A program made the translations under genes and the position numbers. Positions 1 to 61,123 of a stretch of DNA of 64,000 bases are shown one piece after another (the first letter of the stretch is position 1; each line of letters begins with the position of its first letter). Below the pieces are notes generated by a model. It searched no databases. It was not told the origin of the DNA and saw only the letters and a list, made by a program, of their open reading frames with translations. Source of the stretch: Flavobacteriaceae bacterium (GTDB lineage: Bacteria; Bacteroidota; Bacteroidia; Flavobacteriales; Weeksellaceae); the NCBI GenBank assembly GCA_012522185.1, contig JAAYKY010000051.1:1-64000 (forward strand). The letters run 5' to 3'.

Positions 1-731
1 AGGGTTTTGTGAGCGGTATGGCGAGCAGTGTAGTCAGCTCGGTCAGCATGGGGATAAACGCAGCTGCAGGTCTTAGCGGCACGGCAGGGGATGTTTCGAC
101 TATGCTTTTTGGTTCTGCCTCCGGTGGTTTATCTTCCAAACTCGCAGGCGGTAACTTCTGGGAAGGAGCAGCTATAGGGTTAACAGTTTCCGGATTGAAT
201 CACGTGGCGCATAAGATGAGCGGACCCGGAGATGATGAGTTAATAAAAAAACTAACACCTGAACAACGAAAACAACTTGAACAAATTAAATCAGGAACTC
301 AACTTACTACAGAAACTCTTCAAAAAACAGGTTTAGATAAAGTTTTGGACAATTGGATAGAAAACACAGCTTTAGGCAAAAATTTAAAAGTAGGTGTAGT
401 AGATTATCTATCTATGGGCGGAGAAATTTATTATGACCATAAGCTGCAGCAGTATAACGGAATCAGTAAGAATGAATTTACATTTAGGTTTGTTACAAAA
501 GCAACGTCGGGTTTAACATCTGCACATTTTGGTTCTCTTGCTGGAGCGGCTATTGGAGCAGAATACGGAGCGACTGTGGGGGGGCTTGTAGGAACTGTTG
601 TTGGAGCTGGTGTTGGTTTTTATATTGAGAACACTTATTGGAGAGGAATAAAATATTTTAATAATTTTATGCAAAGGATGGATGGATACATTCAAAGACA
701 AGTAATTTTTAATGCTAGAAGAGGATTTTAA
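1..731 (+). CDS. C-terminal end of Rhs-like polymorphic toxin (frame open to window start); glycine-zipper-rich toxin domain
   Basis: Frame open upstream of the GTG at 9; pre-toxin motif GGNFWEGAAIGLTVSGLNHVAHK followed by a unique C-terminus containing GSLAGAAIGAEYGATVGGLVGTVVGAGVGFYIE. Confidence 0.75.
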   Translation, partial: GFVSGMASSVVSSVSMGINAAAGLSGTAGDVSTMLFGSASGGLSSKLAGGNFWEGAAIGLTVSGLNHVAHKMSGPGDDELIKKLTPEQRKQLEQIKSGTQLTTETLQKTGLDKVLDNWIENTALGKNLKVGVVDYLSMGGEIYYDHKLQQYNGISKNEFTFRFVTKATSGLTSAHFGSLAGAAIGAEYGATVGGLVGTVVGAGVGFYIENTYWRGIKYFNNFMQRMDGYIQRQVIFNARRGF

Positions 732-732
732 T

Positions 733-1407
733 ATGGAAGTTTCAAAAAAAGTCTTACGAAAAATGCCAACAGATACTCTTAAAGATTATTTAAAAGAAGA
801 TAATCGATATGTATCCCAAGCTGTGGAATATGCATTTGAAATATTACAACAAGAAAGAGGAATTGATTTTTCTCCTGATGAAGTTTTAAGGATACAAAAT
901 TTAATCCAGAAGAAGACAATAGCAGAACAACCAAGCTATGTTCGAAAACAAGAACAAGAAAATAAAAATTCAGATATTAAGCCTGTAACTAATCAAGCTT
1001 CTATATTTTCCAAAAATAACATAATTTTTTTGTCTATAATCCTTAGCCCTTTACTGGGAGGAGCATTATTGTTTTATAATTTGAAAGTTTTAAAAAAAAG
1101 TAATACTAAAAATATAATTTTAATTTTTTCATATCTTGTTGTATCCTTCCTTTTTATTTTTTTGTTTAATATTTTATATACTAATTATTTACAGGGTTTT
1201 ATTAGTTCGATTTTCAATAGTGATTATCTCAATTTTAGATATTCAGCAACAACATTTAAAATTGCATTTAAAACAATGATTAATTTACTTTTTATAAGTT
1301 ATTTATGGGAAATTTTCTTTGGGAAACATTTTTCATATCAATCGAAGGATATTACCTTTCCTGTAATAATCTGTTTAATTATTTATATGGCATTTTTATT
1401 TTTTTAA
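733..1407 (+). CDS. putative immunity protein with about 4 transmembrane segments
   Basis: ATG at 733 directly after the toxin stop at 731; hydrophobic segments NIIFLSIILSPLLGGALLFY, ILIFSYLVVSFLFIFLFNILY, INLLFISYLWEIFF, FPVIICLIIYMAFLFF. Confidence 0.6.
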   Translation: MEVSKKVLRKMPTDTLKDYLKEDNRYVSQAVEYAFEILQQERGIDFSPDEVLRIQNLIQKKTIAEQPSYVRKQEQENKNSDIKPVTNQASIFSKNNIIFLSIILSPLLGGALLFYNLKVLKKSNTKNIILIFSYLVVSFLFIFLFNILYTNYLQGFISSIFNSDYLNFRYSATTFKIAFKTMINLLFISYLWEIFFGKHFSYQSKDITFPVIICLIIYMAFLFF

Positions 1408-1425
1408 TACCAATAGAAAACCACT

Positions 1426-1614
1426 GCAGTGTAGTCAGCTCGGTCAACATGGGGATAAACGCAGCTGCAGGTCTTAGCGGCACCCCCGGGGATATCTCCA
1501 CCATGCTTTTTGGTTCTGCCTCCGGTGGCTTATCTTCCAAACTCGCGGGCGGTAACTTCTGGGAGGGCGCAGCTATAGGGCTTACAGTTTCAGGATTGAA
1601 TCACGTGGCGCATA
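1426..1614 (+). repeat. Second copy of Rhs pre-toxin segment (collinear with 25-213)
   Basis: Near-identical 189-bp collinear match, offset 1401, no indels seen; ends at ...aatcacgtggcgcata in both. Confidence 0.9.
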
Positions 1615-2012
1615 GAAGTACCGCAAAAGATAGTTTTGAAATAACGGAAGAAATAATAGAGCCAACTACTGGGGAATCAGAAGAGGGTTTTCTGCCTCCG
1701 GGAAAAATAAGATTTGAAGGGTTAAAAGATAAGCACTTAAAACAATTTAGAGTAATTCCGGAAAGTAGTTCTGAATTGATATTACCGAATAACGATATAA
1801 CTTACCAAACGGATGGTTTTTATCACCAAAATACGACAGAAGATAAATACTGGTATAAAATAGGTGGTGGAAGAATGGTTCGAGTAACTTATAATGGTAA
1901 GAGTTTTGATTTGTCAAGATCCATCTTTAATCCTTTGGGGCTTGGTAGCTACATTGGATGGAAACCCAAAAGTGAACCACATTGGACGACTAATCCTTTT
2001 TATAAACAATGA
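1449..2012 (+). CDS. orphan polymorphic-toxin C-terminal cassette (unknown toxin domain)
   Basis: Pre-toxin repeat fused to a new C-terminus (...GGGRMVRVTYNGKSFDLSRSIFNPLGLG...); track ORF from 1305 reads through the end of the preceding gene, internal ATG at 1449. Confidence 0.6.
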   Translation: MGINAAAGLSGTPGDISTMLFGSASGGLSSKLAGGNFWEGAAIGLTVSGLNHVAHRSTAKDSFEITEEIIEPTTGESEEGFLPPGKIRFEGLKDKHLKQFRVIPESSSELILPNNDITYQTDGFYHQNTTEDKYWYKIGGGRMVRVTYNGKSFDLSRSIFNPLGLGSYIGWKPKSEPHWTTNPFYKQ

Positions 2013-2314
2013 TGAAAAAGAGGTTTAAACAGATATTGATTGTCATTTTATTGTTAGTGGTAATATCACTCTCGTACATAATTATTAGTGAATATAAGTT
2101 TAAAAATAATATAATAATTGGTATGGAGTTAGTTGAGATACAAAAACTATATGGAAAGGCAGATAAGGTTACTGAAAATGAAAAAGATATTATTTACATA
2201 TATTATTCAACATTTAATAAAACCGTATTTGTGTTTTCTAAAAAAGAGGGCAAACTAAAAACAAAATGGAAAGAAAATTGGTACTTCATTTATGGCAATG
2301 AAGTTAATAACTAA
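2009..2314 (+). CDS. putative immunity protein, N-terminal membrane anchor
   Basis: Overlaps toxin stop; MMKKRFKQILIVILLLVVISLSYIII signal-anchor. Confidence 0.5.
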   Translation: MMKKRFKQILIVILLLVVISLSYIIISEYKFKNNIIIGMELVEIQKLYGKADKVTENEKDIIYIYYSTFNKTVFVFSKKEGKLKTKWKENWYFIYGNEVNN

Positions 2315-2321
2315 AGCACTC

Positions 2322-2358
2322 ACCGTCCGTCAGTGCGTTGAATCATGTGGCGCATAGA
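2322..2358 (+). repeat. Truncated third copy of pre-toxin segment (3' end only)
   Basis: accgtccgtcagtgcgttgaatcatgtggcgcatagaatg matches the 3' end of the repeat at 4661-4699. Confidence 0.7.
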
Positions 2359-2853
2359 ATGCAGGAAAAGAAATTCATTTATAAAGCTAAACAGCATTTA
2401 GATGAAGCTGGTTATGCCCCATATGGAAAGCCTGAAAAGAACACAGGTTATGCTAACAATATGTTGAAAAGGGTTAAAACTTTGAAAAATATGGAAATTC
2501 GTGCAGGTAAAACAATTACGGTTACTGAAATAAATGATGATCCATCCTATAAGGGCGCACACTTGGGAAATGGGAAAATAGCGCTTTCTAAAAATAATAA
2601 CTACACATTCAAAAGTAATATGACTTTATATTTAACTTTATATCATGAATCATTACATGTTGTTTATGATTTCAGTCCAGCTATGAGTATTTACTTAAGA
2701 TCTTCATATAATGATACCAATAAAGCAGGTACCTTAGCAGAGTGGGAGCATTATCTAATTTTTAAAGAAATGAATTCAATATTAGTCAATGGGACAGGTA
2801 CGTTTGGGATAGGAGAAGGATTGAATCCATTAAAAAGATTATTTAGACAATAA
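2338..2853 (+). CDS. orphan toxin cassette, HExxH metallopeptidase-like C-terminal domain
   Basis: LNHVAHRM junction (TTG start), HESLH motif at 2644-2658, downstream EHYLIF; similar to 3422-4021. Confidence 0.65.
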   Translation: MNHVAHRMQEKKFIYKAKQHLDEAGYAPYGKPEKNTGYANNMLKRVKTLKNMEIRAGKTITVTEINDDPSYKGAHLGNGKIALSKNNNYTFKSNMTLYLTLYHESLHVVYDFSPAMSIYLRSSYNDTNKAGTLAEWEHYLIFKEMNSILVNGTGTFGIGEGLNPLKRLFRQ

Positions 2854-2857
2854 AAAT

Positions 2858-3388
2858 ATGGTTATGAAATTAATTATAGTATTAAATATTCTCATTTTAT
2901 TTTCATTTTGCACTTCTACTAAAGATCAAAATGAAGGTATTTCTCCTTATGAAATAGTCTTAGATAATGAATTTCCACGTAGCGATGTTAGAGAGTTAAT
3001 TTTGAATTTCCAACTATTAAATGACGATCGAGTAAAAAAACATGTATGTAAGCAAATGATTGAGGAAGTAAACTCAATAGACTTAGAATTCTTATGCTCA
3101 TTTAAAAATGATAATGCCTTTCAGACAATAGAACAATTAAAGTTAAAACGAAATTACTACGTTTTTGATAAAAAAAATCTATCTGAATTTGAGCCAAATA
3201 ATTATGAAAATATGCCTTATGGAGTAATTAGTTTATCCAATATTTTAACGACAGATGATCCCAACATAATATTAATTTATATTGAAAAATATTTTAGTGG
3301 ATGGGATGGTTTTGGAAAAGTATATGTTTTGAAGAAAAAAGAAAATCGTTGGCATATCAAGAACATATATACTTCATGGAAATCTTAA
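2858..3388 (+). CDS. putative lipoprotein immunity protein (GWDGF family)
   Basis: Lipobox-like LFSFC; C-terminus FSGWDGFGKVYVLKKKENRWHIKNIYTSWKS resembles 4023-4583 product. Confidence 0.6.
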   Translation: MVMKLIIVLNILILFSFCTSTKDQNEGISPYEIVLDNEFPRSDVRELILNFQLLNDDRVKKHVCKQMIEEVNSIDLEFLCSFKNDNAFQTIEQLKLKRNYYVFDKKNLSEFEPNNYENMPYGVISLSNILTTDDPNIILIYIEKYFSGWDGFGKVYVLKKKENRWHIKNIYTSWKS

Positions 3389-3421
3389 TGAGTGTTATCA
3401 GAAGTGTAATAAATAAATAAA

Positions 3422-4021
3422 ATGATATTCTTCGGTACGGTTTCTAATGGTTTATCTTCCAAACTCGCGGGCGGTAACTTCTGGGAAGGTGCAGCGATAG
3501 GTTTAACCGTTTCCGGATTGAATCATACAATGCATAAGATATCATTCAATAGATTTGTTAAAAAATGGACATATAGAGTTCAAGAAGAGCTTGATGCGGC
3601 TGGGTATGACCCTGATGGAATCCCCCAAGCTACAACCAGCTATGGAAATACTATGATCAGCAAATTAAGAACTTTGCAAATAATGAATCGTAGTGCTAAG
3701 GGGAAAATACGTGTTACGGATATTAAAAATGACCCAAAAATTAGGGGAGAAGCAAATTCAGAAGTTGGACTTCGTTTATCCAATGCCAAAGGCTCTTGGA
3801 CTTTTAAATCTAATACGACATATGCATTGGTTTTAATACATGAAGGAGCTCACATCATGTTTGATGTTTTGGGTACTTATTTTCAAACCGGAGATCATGA
3901 GCATTATCAAATTTTTAGGGTTTGGTTGCTCCCTATGATTAATCTAAATACTTCAGCTTATGGATTGTATGATGAATTCAAAACATATGCTGAAAAAACC
4001 CATCAATCCTCAAAATTATAA
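3422..4021 (+). CDS. orphan toxin cassette, HExxH metallopeptidase-like C-terminal domain
   Basis: Pre-toxin repeat SNGLSSKLAGGNFWEGAAIGLTVSGLNH; HEGAH motif at 3839-3853; EHYQIF. Confidence 0.7.
   Translation: MIFFGTVSNGLSSKLAGGNFWEGAAIGLTVSGLNHTMHKISFNRFVKKWTYRVQEELDAAGYDPDGIPQATTSYGNTMISKLRTLQIMNRSAKGKIRVTDIKNDPKIRGEANSEVGLRLSNAKGSWTFKSNTTYALVLIHEGAHIMFDVLGTYFQTGDHEHYQIFRVWLLPMINLNTSAYGLYDEFKTYAEKTHQSSKL
3449..3540 (+). repeat. Fourth copy of pre-toxin segment
   Basis: ggtttatcttccaaactcgcgggcggtaacttctgggaagg... close to 126-217. Confidence 0.85.
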
Positions 4022-18859: not shown

Positions 18860-20077
18860 ATGGTATTAGAAATGAAAGTTCCCTCTCCGGGAGAATCCAT
18901 CACAGAAGTTGAAATTGCAGCATGGCTTGTAAAAGACGGTGACTATGTGGAAAAAGACCAAGCAATTGCTGAAGTTGACTCCGACAAAGCGACACTTGAA
19001 CTTCCGGCCGAAGAAAGCGGAATTATTACACTAAAAGCCGAAGAAGGCGATGCCGTAGAAGTTGGACAAGTCGTTTGTCTGATCGACACTTCTGCTGCAC
19101 GTCCAGAAGGAGGTTCTGCACCGGCCGATGAGAAAAATGAAGAACCAAAGGAAGAAGAGCCAAAAAAAGAAGCCAAACCGGCAGAAAATACAACCTATGC
19201 AACGGGAACTCCATCTCCGGCAGCTAAAAAGATTTTAGATGAAAAAGGGGTGGATGCTTCCACCGTTTCAGGATCTGGAAAAGACGGAAGAATTACCAAA
19301 CAAGACGCTCAAAATGCACAGGTCGCAGCGATGGGTACACCCACCGGAGGAAGCCGTGGCTCAGAAAGAACCAAACTTTCGATGCTTCGTAGAAAAGTAG
19401 CCGAAAGATTGGTGGCCGCCAAAAATGAAACGGCTATGCTGACTACTTTCAACGAAGCCAATATGACGCCTATCAATAAGCTTCGTAGCGAATTCAAAGA
19501 AGAATTCAAAGCCAAACACGGCGTAAGTCTTGGCTTTATGTCATTCTTTACCAAAGCCGTTGTCAGAGCACTTCAACTCTACCCTGACGTGAATTCGATG
19601 ATCGACGGTGATTATAAAATTTCTTACGATTTCTGTGATATTTCAATTGCGGTTTCCGGTCCAAAAGGACTGATGGTCCCAGTAATGCGAAATGCAGAAG
19701 CCTTGACATTTAGAGGAATTGAAAATGAAATCAAACGTTTGGCATTGCGCGCACGTGACGGACAAATCACAGTGGATGAAATGACCGGAGGAACCTTTAC
19801 CATTTCAAACGGTGGGGTTTTTGGCTCGATGTTGAGTACACCGATTATCAATCCGCCACAATCCGGAATTTTGGGAATGCACAACATCATTGAACGTCCG
19901 ATTGCAGTGGATGGAAAAGTGGAAATTCATCCTATGATGTACATCGCTCTATCCTATGACCACCGAATTATCGACGGACGCGAATCCGTTGGATTCTTGG
20001 TTGCCGTAAAAGAAGGACTGGAAGATCCGGTCAATCTTTTGATGGACGGAGACGTGAAAAAAGCCTTGGAATTGTAA
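18860..20077 (+). CDS. sucB: dihydrolipoamide succinyltransferase (2-oxoglutarate dehydrogenase E2)
   Basis: Lipoyl domain [16 protein letters not shown]; catalytic [16 protein letters not shown]; follows sucA. Confidence 0.93.
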
Positions 20078-20098
20078 ATTTAGAAATCCAATAAATAT

Positions 20099-20132
20099 TG
20101 AAAACGGATGCCCAAAGGTGTCCGTTTTTTTT
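20099..20132 (+). terminator. intrinsic terminator after sucB
   Basis: aaaacggatgcccaaaggtgtccgtttttttt. Confidence 0.8.
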
Positions 20133-20136
20133 ATTC

Positions 20137-20214
20137 AAAAACCCCATAAAACTAATAGGTTTATGAGGTTTAGAGAGTTATAAAAAGTATATGTAGAGAG
20201 AGTTGTCTATTATT
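20137..20214 (-). ncRNA. candidate small RNA A (novel family)
   Basis: Minus-strand TAAATTTG (20221-20228); terminator hairpin (minus strand) AACCTCATAAA...TTTATGGGGTTTTT at 20137-20170; no ORF. Confidence 0.5.
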
Positions 20215-20250
20215 CTGATACAAATTTAGTTTTCAAGTTTTAATTATTAT

Positions 20251-20285
20251 CAGGAATTATCCTGATTTTTAAAAGGAAAATCCCT
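20251..20285 (-). promoter_or_regulatory. conserved upstream box A
   Basis: caggaattatcctgatttttaaaaggaaaatccct; starts 22 nt beyond the -7 element. Confidence 0.5.
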
Positions 20286-20295
20286 AGTTGATATC

Positions 20296-20424
20296 AAAAA
20301 AAATCTCACTATCCAGGGGAGGAAGCGTGAGATTTCAATTCACTTAAATTTTAGTTAAGAACATAGTATCAAAAATGTTTAAGTTGGTTAAAACAGTTTA
20401 GGTTAGATTGATTTGACACTTTTG
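20296..20424 (-). ncRNA. candidate small RNA B (novel family)
   Basis: Minus-strand TAAGTTTG (20431-20438); terminator AAATCTCACGC...GTGAGATTTTTTTT at 20296-20335; resembles C. Confidence 0.55.
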
Positions 20425-20460
20425 ATACAGCAAACTTACTCATGATAACTATGAATTTAT

Positions 20461-20500
20461 AAGGGAAAACCCTCATTTTTCAACAGGATTTTTCCCTTTG
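20461..20500 (-). promoter_or_regulatory. conserved upstream box B
   Basis: aagggaaaaccctcatttttcaacaggatttttccctttg; 22 nt from the -7 element. Confidence 0.5.
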
Positions 20501-20643
20501 AAAAAAAAAATCTACTGAAATCAAATTGAATTTTTAATTATAACATACTCATTAAATACAAACATGATATCATCCAAATGCTTTAGAAATCAAATCTATT
20601 TAATTTATTCAATCCGACTTGCCAAACCAACTTTTGGGTAAAT

Positions 20644-20765
20644 AAAAAAATCCCACAATTCCGGGGTTCGAACCGTGAGATTTCAGCACACTTGATTTAG
20701 TAGAGAGTGTCATGTTGAAAATGATTTGGTTGGTTGTAGCTAAGGTTAGCTTTTTTTACATTTTC
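20644..20765 (-). ncRNA. candidate small RNA C (novel family)
   Basis: Minus-strand TTG-N22-TAGATTTG (20772-20779, 20802-20804); terminator AAATCTCACGG...GTGGGATTTTTTT. Confidence 0.55.
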
Positions 20766-20801
20766 TATTTACAAATCTAAGTACTCATTATTAAATAATT
20801 A

Positions 20802-20836
20802 CAAGGAAAAACCCCCATTTTTTTGGAGATATTTCC
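20802..20836 (-). promoter_or_regulatory. conserved upstream box C
   Basis: caaggaaaaacccccatttttttggagatatttcc; 22 nt from the -7 element. Confidence 0.5.
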
Positions 20837-20908
20837 TATAAAATTGATAGGCTATTTCTGTCAAATAAGTGTATTGTTTCTTATTTTAGCAATTTATATA
20901 TAGAAAAT

Positions 20909-22393
20909 ATGCAAGAAATATTAAATCTCGAACCTCAGAATATCTGGAAAAATTTTTATGAGCTCAATCAAGTTCCGCGTCCTTCAAAAAAGGAAGAAAA
21001 AGTAATCCAATTCATGATGGATTTCGGAAATAATTTAGGTCTGGAAACCATTCAGGACAAAGTCGGAAATGTCATCATCAAAAAACCGGCAACAACGGGA
21101 ATGGAAAACAGAAAAACCATCGTTTTGCAATCACACCTCGATATGGTTTGTCAGAAAAATAACGACGTCGATTTCGATTTTGATACCCAAGCCATTCAAA
21201 TGTATGTGGATACAGACGGTTTCCTAAAAGCAAAAGGAACGACTTTGGGCGCGGATAATGGAATTGGAGTAGCAACGATTATGGCCGTTTTGGAGTCGAC
21301 CGATATTCCTCATCCGCCGATTGAAGCACTTTTTACCATTGACGAAGAAACCGGAATGACCGGAGCAATTGGTTTGGATCCGACAATTTTATCGGGCGAA
21401 ATTTTACTGAATCTCGATACCGAAGAAGATGACGAACTTACCATAAGCTGTGCCGGCGGAATGGACGTTACCGCTACCAAAAAGTATAATCCGCAAAATC
21501 TTTCACAACACAGCGAAACCGGCTCTGAAGCCGGAAACTTTGCTTCTTTAAAAGTGGAAATCAAAGGTTTAAAAGGCGGACATTCGGGCGGGGATATTCA
21601 ATTGGGACTTGGGAATTCCAATAAATTATTGGCAAGATTTTTAAATGAATCTTTGAAACATCTGGCTCAAATTTCCAAAATGGAAAGTGGCGGACTTCGA
21701 AATGCAATTCCACGCGAAGGTTACTTTATCATTGCAGTACCTCAAACTGAATTGGAGAAAGCAATTGCTGATTTGGAAAGCTTGAAAAGCGATGTGAAGA
21801 ACGAATTCAAATCCATTGAACCCAATATTTCCATTGAAATTTCAAAAACCAATCATTTAAAAGAAGCGGCTTCATTTGAGGAAACTAAAAAATTGGCACA
21901 AGCTCTGATGTCGGCCTACAACGGGGTTTATCGAATGAGTCCCGATATGGAAGGCGTTACAGAAACTTCCAATAACGTCGCAAATGTTGTAGTTGACAAC
22001 GGCGAAATGAAAATTCTTTGTCTTTCACGTTCAGCAATTGAATCAGGCAAAAAAGCGATGATCGAATCGCTCCAAGCTACGTTTGAACTGGCCGGATTTA
22101 AGGTTGAATTTTCGGGCGGATATCCAGGATGGCGGCCCAATGTGAATTCGGAAATTTTGGATTTGATGAAACCATTGTACAAAGAAATGTTTGGTGAAGA
22201 GCCAAAAATCATCGCAACTCATGGCGGGTTGGAATGTGGAATCATCGGCGGGCATTATCCGGAAATGGATATGATTTCTTTTGGTCCGAATATTTTCGGC
22301 GCCCACTCCCCTGACGAACGTGTGGAAATCAAATCGGTTCAGAAATTCTGGAAGTATTTCTTGGAGGTTCTGAAAAGAATCCCCCAAAAATAA
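20909..22393 (+). CDS. pepD: aminoacyl-histidine dipeptidase
   Basis: VLQSHLDMVCQKN, GTTLGADNGIGVA, NLDTEEDDELTISCAGG, THGGLECGIIG. Confidence 0.92.
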   Translation: MQEILNLEPQNIWKNFYELNQVPRPSKKEEKVIQFMMDFGNNLGLETIQDKVGNVIIKKPATTGMENRKTIVLQSHLDMVCQKNNDVDFDFDTQAIQMYVDTDGFLKAKGTTLGADNGIGVATIMAVLESTDIPHPPIEALFTIDEETGMTGAIGLDPTILSGEILLNLDTEEDDELTISCAGGMDVTATKKYNPQNLSQHSETGSEAGNFASLKVEIKGLKGGHSGGDIQLGLGNSNKLLARFLNESLKHLAQISKMESGGLRNAIPREGYFIIAVPQTELEKAIADLESLKSDVKNEFKSIEPNISIEISKTNHLKEAASFEETKKLAQALMSAYNGVYRMSPDMEGVTETSNNVANVVVDNGEMKILCLSRSAIESGKKAMIESLQATFELAGFKVEFSGGYPGWRPNVNSEILDLMKPLYKEMFGEEPKIIATHGGLECGIIGGHYPEMDMISFGPNIFGAHSPDERVEIKSVQKFWKYFLEVLKRIPQK

Positions 22394-22395
22394 AA

Positions 22396-22523
22396 CAAAA
22401 ACGCGCCACAGAGAGAATTGTGGCGCGTTTTTTTGGAAATAAAGAGTTTAAATAATGAGGATGGTGAAAAATGATTCTTAAATTCATAATTCTAAATCAT
22501 TCCTAGAACGCTTCGTTGAGTTT
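22396..22523 (-). ncRNA. candidate small RNA D (novel family)
   Basis: Minus-strand TTG-N22-TACATTTG (22530-22537, 22560-22562); terminator stem ACGCGCCACA/TGTGGCGCGT at 22401-22428, shared with pepD. Confidence 0.5.
22401..22434. terminator. bidirectional intrinsic terminator
   Basis: caaaaacgcgccacagagagaattgtggcgcgttttttt: 10-bp perfect stem with A-tract and T-tract. Confidence 0.85.
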
Positions 22524-22559
22524 ATATTGCAAATGTACTTATCTCAATTCATTGATTCA

Positions 22560-22595
22560 CAAGGAAAAACCCTGAATTTATTCAAGAGAATTCCT
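22560..22595 (-). promoter_or_regulatory. conserved upstream box D
   Basis: caaggaaaaaccctgaatttattcaagagaattcctg; 22 nt from the -7 element. Confidence 0.5.
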
Positions 22596-60649: not shown

Positions 60650-61123
60650 ATGAAAAAATATCTGATTTTATTTGCCGTCATTTTGGCAACGGCATTGAGT
60701 GCAAACGCACAAATAAACGTTTACAAAGGTACATCTACCTTTAGTGGAGATATAATTTGCAACCTCTCAAACGGAAAGGTGTACGAAGGCACATCTTCAT
60801 TTAGTGGAAACGTAATTTGTAACGTTAAAGGAAACACCATTTACGAAGGAACTTCCACCTTTAGCGGAAATGTTTTATACACTGTTTCAGAGGGTAAGGT
60901 TTACAAAGGTACATCAACCTTTAGTGGAAACATCGCTTTCACCATCAAGGATAACAAAGTCTATAAAGGTACTTCTACATTTAGCGGAGATGTATTGGCA
61001 ACCATCAGATGCGGAAAGGTTTACAAAGGGACTTCTTCTTTTTCGGGAGATATACTTTTCACCATTGACGGCTCTGTAACCACAGAAGAATTTGTAGCCA
61101 TTTGGATGGCTGTTATAAATTGA
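60650..61123 (+). CDS. secreted protein of six 20-residue repeats (VYKGTSTFSGD...)
   Basis: Signal peptide then six 60-bp units starting 60719, 60779, 60839, 60899, 60959, 61019. Confidence 0.85.
   Translation: MKKYLILFAVILATALSANAQINVYKGTSTFSGDIICNLSNGKVYEGTSSFSGNVICNVKGNTIYEGTSTFSGNVLYTVSEGKVYKGTSTFSGNIAFTIKDNKVYKGTSTFSGDVLATIRCGKVYKGTSSFSGDILFTIDGSVTTEEFVAIWMAVIN
60719..61078 (+). repeat. Six in-frame tandem 60-bp repeats
   Basis: gtttacaaaggtacatctacctttagtggagat... period exactly 60. Confidence 0.9.

Follow-up and report, generated by a model that had tools for sequence, protein, structure and literature searches.

Small-RNA gene candidates around sucB and pepD in a Flavobacteriaceae genome and a double promoter element shared with a two-component regulator operon

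Five units in the genome of a Flavobacteriaceae bacterium (G000), here called A to E, are probably small-RNA genes switched on by an autoregulated two-component system, as judged from sequence comparison. By computation, a common double element precedes the units, it recurs out of sample, the RNA genes are conserved together with their synteny within the genus, and the same element is found at the regulator operons across genera. Because the element is common to the unit promoters and to the operon of one histidine kinase and response regulator, this pair is the likely controller. We infer transcription of the units, binding of the regulator of the C58 operon to the element, and base-pairing by the RNAs.

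Units, promoters and terminators

The gap between sucB, which ends at 20077, and pepD, which starts at 20909, spans 831 bp (20078-20908) of the window, i.e., the whole analysed stretch of 64,000 nucleotides. An earlier note on this DNA had described three ordered promoter-to-terminator units on the minus strand of the gap, and A, B and C are indeed present there (Table 1). Unit D (22595-22396) lies downstream of pepD, converging on the pepD 3' end, and unit E is found between surA and ftsY (G000:C10:117332). The gap was also said to hold no credible ORF, and none of at least 50 aa starts inside it, the minus-strand ATG ORFs being of 23–35 aa (the longest 34-35 aa), with reading frames that are broken by indels in the alignable relatives. 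That the transcripts encode very small proteins is thus given scarcely any weight: ATG ORFs, 31-35 aa long, do overlap units B, C and D, and ACTATGAA is seen again among relatives of A, but the frames differ between species and paralogues, the indels are not multiples of three, the ORF of B begins upstream of the predicted transcription start, and those of C and D overrun the terminator. Across the units' relatives, no conserved coding frame was found.

The -7 boxes of A and B are exactly as claimed, and unit C has one of its own. As promoter evidence the motif TAnnTTTG alone is nevertheless weak, because the window contains 98 copies of it on both strands, with one stray in the gap at 20598. 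The TTTG element at -33, which the earlier note had also invoked, did not stand, since neither TTG nor TTTG occurs at the -33 spacing in A or B; in C and D a TTG is located 25 bp upstream of the -7 box. The -33 region of the units is taken up by a double GG-(A/T)n-CC element. The ends by stem-loop and T-run were as described for A and B, and C ends likewise. A strict terminator scanner detected six terminator-like sites in 2.75 kb vs. 1.8 expected, including those of C and D, while B and A fail its rule.

Table 1. Features of units A-D in the window (all minus strand; fold z-scores of the four transcripts are against dinucleotide shuffles, leave-genome-out E values are from model R2)
Unit	Feature	Sequence	Position	Strand	Evidence
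A	operator	AGGGATTTTCC ... AGGATAATTCCT	20252..20285	-	aligned with 12 other units
A	leave-genome-out model match		20211-20289	-	E 1.7e-10
A	-7 box	TAAATTTG	20221..20228	-	direct reading
A	candidate small RNA, ~78 nt, 5' end inferred		20137..20215	-	fold z -2.7
A	terminator		20172-20137	-	stem-loop and T-run
B	operator	GGGAAAAATCC ... GGGTTTTCCCTT	20461..20496	-	unit alignment; leave-genome-out E 9.4e-10
B	-7 box	TAAGTTTG	20431..20438	-	direct reading
B	candidate small RNA, ~130 nt, 5' end inferred		20296..20425	-	fold z -3.2; paralogue of C
B	terminator, C-rich loop		20336-20296	-	stem-loop and T-run
C	operator	AGGAAATATCTCC ... GGGGGTTTTTCCTT	20802..20837	-	unit alignment; leave-genome-out E 1.2e-7
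C	-7 box	TAGATTTG	20772..20779	-	direct reading
C	candidate small RNA, ~122 nt, 5' end inferred		20644..20766	-	terminator scan; fold z -4.6
C	terminator		20684-20647 (stem-loop with T-run, 20684-20644)	-	terminator scan
D	operator	AGGAATTCTC ... AGGGTTTTTCCTT	22560..22595	-	unit alignment; leave-genome-out E 2.4e-12, best match
D	-7 box	TACATTTG	22530..22537	-	direct reading
D	candidate small RNA, ~128 nt, 5' end inferred		22396..22524	-	terminator scan; fold z -5.1
D	terminator		22432-22397	-	terminator scan

Units B and C are sequence paralogues (repeats D1 and D2; alignment), and A is a different RNA behind the same promoter. Of the proposal that the units form one small-RNA family, the part on discrete, self-terminating genes is supported and is the best reading of the units, whereas their common feature is a regulated promoter and not the RNA sequence. 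In the comparison with Rfam, for which Flavo-1 had been suggested, no family reached its gathering score in the window except a tRNA; the units gave sub-threshold chance matches only at relaxed E, and there was no match at the homologous units, the sole match elsewhere being a fluoride riboswitch. No description of the unit family was found in the searched literature on flavobacteria, with most subscription journals outside the coverage.

Two other regions of the window were recorded apart from the units. Consecutive ORFs at 9-4021 repeat GGLSSKLAGGNFWEGAAIGLTVSGLNH and then differ in their C-terminal ends, resembling truncated RHS-like/polymorphic-toxin-like gene copies, and a 157-aa ORF at 60650-61123 has a signal-peptide-like start followed by (V/I)YKGTSTFSGN-type repeats.

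The double element and its recurrence within the genus

Units A, B, C and D carry a tandem near-palindromic element, AGGAATTTTCC–N10–AGGGTTTTTCCTT, with the boxes 21 bp apart, that ends ~23 bp upstream of TAnnTTTG. The proximal box, GGG(T/A)TTTTCC(T) or a variant, keeps a fixed distance from the -7 box, and a similar box is located two helical turns upstream; unit A has a variant rather than the strict form. By sequence, this is a shared activator-type site at a fixed distance from the core promoter. In the alignment of 13 promoters from three genomes, the positions G33, G34, C41, C42 and T43 and the TTTG of the -7 box are invariant. The strict form, GGNTTTTYCC-N21–28-TANNTTTG, has five matches in the 2.55-Mb genome, three of them in the window (B, C and D), and one match outside the window, C10:117362, is that of unit E; the reversed control of the strict form gave 0 matches in the same genome. 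Across the family the strict operator pattern gave many chance matches, and a profile model was used instead.

A position matrix and the profile model R2 were trained on eight promoters from two other genomes of the genus, G001 and G005, only. Over all positions of the window, the top four places of the matrix were D (55.5), C (31.7), B (14.0) and A (11.5), with the next-best place at -10 when the shifted and reverse-strand echoes of A-D are set aside. Model R2 likewise recovered the four units (Table 1) and also unit E (E = 6.5e-9).

The earlier note had named the lack of the units in related genomes as one of two findings that would count against them; in G001 and G005, the promoter, terminator and body are kept together. 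In both genomes a D unit stands beside pepD, C- and A-type units occupy the opposite flank of that gene, in the direction of sucB, and units of type E adjoin ftsY, with the surA/ftsY synteny; units C and D have syntenic homologues in both. The 5' block of unit A, CUCUCUCU, is kept in G001 (two copies) and G005, the second A copy of G001 being located at C1:1302682, and the same genome has an additional F unit at C6:199695. Thus, several promoter-to-terminator units per genome are present without a conserved ORF (A-E in G000 and at least four each in G001 and G005), and in the three species the RNA bodies align within the types A, B/C, D and E, with the terminator kept in each. In G002, where the regulator operon described below and the element are both present, an RNA unit was not recognised, nor does pepD have a comparable gap. 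There is, accordingly, only a very slight probability that the units are not functional, being chance -7 boxes by terminator-like repeats or remnants of spacers or 3'-UTRs; the commonness of TAnnTTTG in the window fits such an origin, but all four units were recovered out of sample, and their bodies, terminators and synteny are kept in three species.

A candidate regulator operon and its relatives across the family

A genus-wide scan with a profile model, R1, was compared with a scan for response regulators, and in G000, G001, G002 and G005 R1 matches proved to lie ~2 kb ahead of the gene of a particular NarL/LuxR-type regulator (G000:C58:17990-18622 in the window's genome). The operon has a shared order of a small protein, mostly lipoprotein-like, a membrane protein, a HisKA_3 kinase and the response regulator, and its R1 match is located directly upstream of the first part in all four genomes. 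The Pfam domains are Response_reg and GerE for the regulator and HisKA_3 and HATPase_c for the kinase; the closest solved structures to the regulator are NarL, VraR, DevR and EvgA, and its orthologues retain the SxKTxDGYR recognition helix. A different pair of a TPR-kinase and a LuxR-type regulator is located directly upstream of D in G005 (L064:4190-7085). Its regulator (L064:6447–7082) was the first candidate but gave way to that of C58, because its best G000 match is only 35% identical and no such gene adjoins D in G000 or G001.

The surroundings of the C58 operon contain two further features. A C92 (YaeF/YiiX) permuted papain-like, lipoprotein-like gene (L239:5298-5918) is divergent from the kinase-regulator operon and shares the operator region with it, with a similar neighbour in G001, G002 and G005, and a fluoride riboswitch (L239:5936-6002; 48.5 bits), adjoining the operon, is situated just upstream of a crcB-like gene.

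The regulator subfamily was fetched by protein similarity alone from 110 family genomes, which resulted in 38 genomes of 14 out of 34 genera. Among the 33 regulator loci, G002 aside, the top R1 matches (L338, L337, L319 and L323, of the genera g5, g12 and g19) stand on the strand of the first operon gene, 8-35 bp ahead of it. In g5, g19 and g30, direct inspection showed AAAAGGGTGTTTTTCCT, or a form close to it, with the same spacing to TAnnTTTG; other genera have variants. A simple rule, a GG-(A/T)n-C(C/T) box 32-38 nt before TAnnTTTG, held for nine of the 33 operon upstream regions vs. a mean of 0.08 (max 2) in 500 shuffles, and for 0/33 on the reverse strand; one of the nine, L317, looks spurious, and the related GGTGTTTTTACT is present there at the right spacing. 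Many of the operon promoters have the proximal box alone, and some in g20 and g11 are without a clear box. G000 also has a paralogue of the C58 operon (L315; G000:C52:16500-20911), again made up of a small protein, a membrane protein, a kinase and a regulator, whose promoter carries GGTGAATTCCC, so that the C58 and C52 promoters are both box-like.

Beyond the genus, the double box was also found before RNA units. In g32 (two genomes), it precedes a ~75-nt unit that ends AGAGACTACC…GATAGTCTCTTTC, is nearly identical in both species, and is divergent from the kinase–regulator pair, and in g20 (eight genomes), behind a pepP-like gene, it precedes a different unit that is likewise conserved and terminated. 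By eye, the g20 and g32 RNAs are unlike those of Moheibacter, i.e., different RNAs follow a conserved promoter. Some R1 sites are upstream of protein genes, such as that of a T9SS-tail protein in G001 and others in g20, and the regulon would therefore not consist of RNAs alone. Separately, R1 matches in four g20 loci (L252, L254, L266 and L269) are located upstream of genes that, by eye, resemble those of contractile-tail sheath or similar proteins; Pfam gave no match for the tested genes of these loci.

The units could be real and the double box be read by some other factor, the C52 paralogue or an unrelated one, with the C58 operon merely a part of its regulon, which we regard as rather unlikely. 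The box before protein genes unrelated to the kinase, the box-like promoter of the C52 paralogue and the regulator operons without a clear box are in its favour. However, the box recurs before the operon of this regulator subfamily itself over a wider range of taxa than anywhere else, in g32 the RNA unit and the kinase–regulator pair are divergent, and such a pattern is usually explained by autoregulation. The C58 two-component system is retained as the likely controller of A-E; the C52 regulator may act in its place.

Proposed mechanism and known systems

The units would be transcribed from primary-sigma promoters (TAnnTTTG), which have no good -33 element at A and B and carry instead a putative double activator site, a pair of near-palindromic GG-(A/T)n-CC boxes spaced by two helical turns. 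That the double site is near −35, that A and B have a poor −33 region, and that the element is present at the regulator's own operon together fit activation by that regulator, the NarL/LuxR-type protein of the C58 HisKA_3-kinase operon being the likely activator; since the same element is in the operon's own promoter, the regulator would also autoregulate. As the operon opens with a small lipoprotein-like and a membrane protein, the signal is probably received at the envelope, and the phosphorylated regulator would then turn on several small RNAs simultaneously. The small RNAs may act in trans, most likely with their unstructured loop and 5' segments pairing to mRNAs, base-pairing being assumed by default; a 9-nt seed-complement search with TAGAGAGAG in three genomes gave few matches, none conserved at a translation start.

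A small probability is assigned to the RNAs mainly titrating a protein, Gac/Rsm-like, instead of base-pairing; this bears on the last step alone and would leave the two-component control intact. The 5' segments and the terminator loops repeatedly contain single-stranded CUCUCU tracts, which are present in four of the five G000 units (A, C, D and E) and several homologues and are usually predicted unpaired, and the arrangement of one LuxR-type regulator, an upstream palindrome and several RNAs is similar to that of GacA-RsmXYZ (for BarA-UvrY, the available part of PMC4682653). On the other hand, the 7-mer count of 7/15 is at the edge of the range, with a shuffle maximum of 7, so that the tracts are suggestive but short of significance; CUCUCU is absent from B and F and was not seen in the RNAs of g20 and g32, and no partner protein is known.

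Small-RNA regulation in this phylum is thinly known outside Bacteroides. If the proposed control is true, it provides a named kinase–regulator switch, an operator that can be read from sequence and, for several genera, a set of RNA genes, and a whole post-transcriptional regulon would become testable via the deletion of one gene. It also suggests that the small RNAs of the phylum may be findable via an activator site that they have in common, even where the RNAs themselves lack sequence conservation.

Several small-RNA genes under one regulator are known in other bacteria. The csRNAs and Qrr sRNAs have a regulator class and a binding site that differ from those here, and the sRNA genes controlled by GacA/UvrY have a palindromic upstream site. 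The units resemble the CiaR-dependent csRNAs and the Qrr sRNAs, cited as sibling sRNAs (PMC11697453), in being multiple sRNA genes with one regulator. In Listeria monocytogenes, LhrC is a multicopy sRNA controlled by LisRK and tied to cell-envelope stress, according to the available part of PMC4132741; as proposed here, several sRNA genes belong there to one two-component system, but the phylum is another one, and the LhrC copies are mutually homologous, whereas the present units have a shared promoter and distinct RNA types. The GacA/UvrY-controlled RsmX/Y/Z and CsrB/C, which titrate CsrA, are likewise several sRNA genes for a LuxR-type response regulator, the class of the candidate here, as far as the available part of PMC4682653 describes them; unlike these targets, the units have no known CsrA-like partner, and their element consists of tandem AGGAWWTTTCC-like boxes. 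Rfp18 of Flavobacterium psychrophilum is described in the available part of PMC9723704 as a single flavobacterial sRNA linked to proteases, with no shared operator reported there, unlike the units here. Within the same phylum, FopS and GibS are comparable as a multicopy sRNA family; FopS of Bacteroides thetaiotaomicron comprises 14 RNA-sequence paralogues with a shared R1/R1' 5' seed and a canonical sigma-ABfr promoter (PMC11697453). By this description, FopS differs from the units, to which a defined upstream site is common, and the FopS paper names no transcriptional activator (PMC11697453). As a tentative wider reading, to which we give somewhat less than an even chance, the two-component system may keep its operator and autoregulation across many genera while the small RNAs driven by it are replaced lineage by lineage, with A-E in Moheibacter, the unit on the kinase side in g32 and the unit after the pepP-like gene in g20 as possible cases, and it would then be a Bacteroidota counterpart of Gac/Rsm or LisRK/LhrC.
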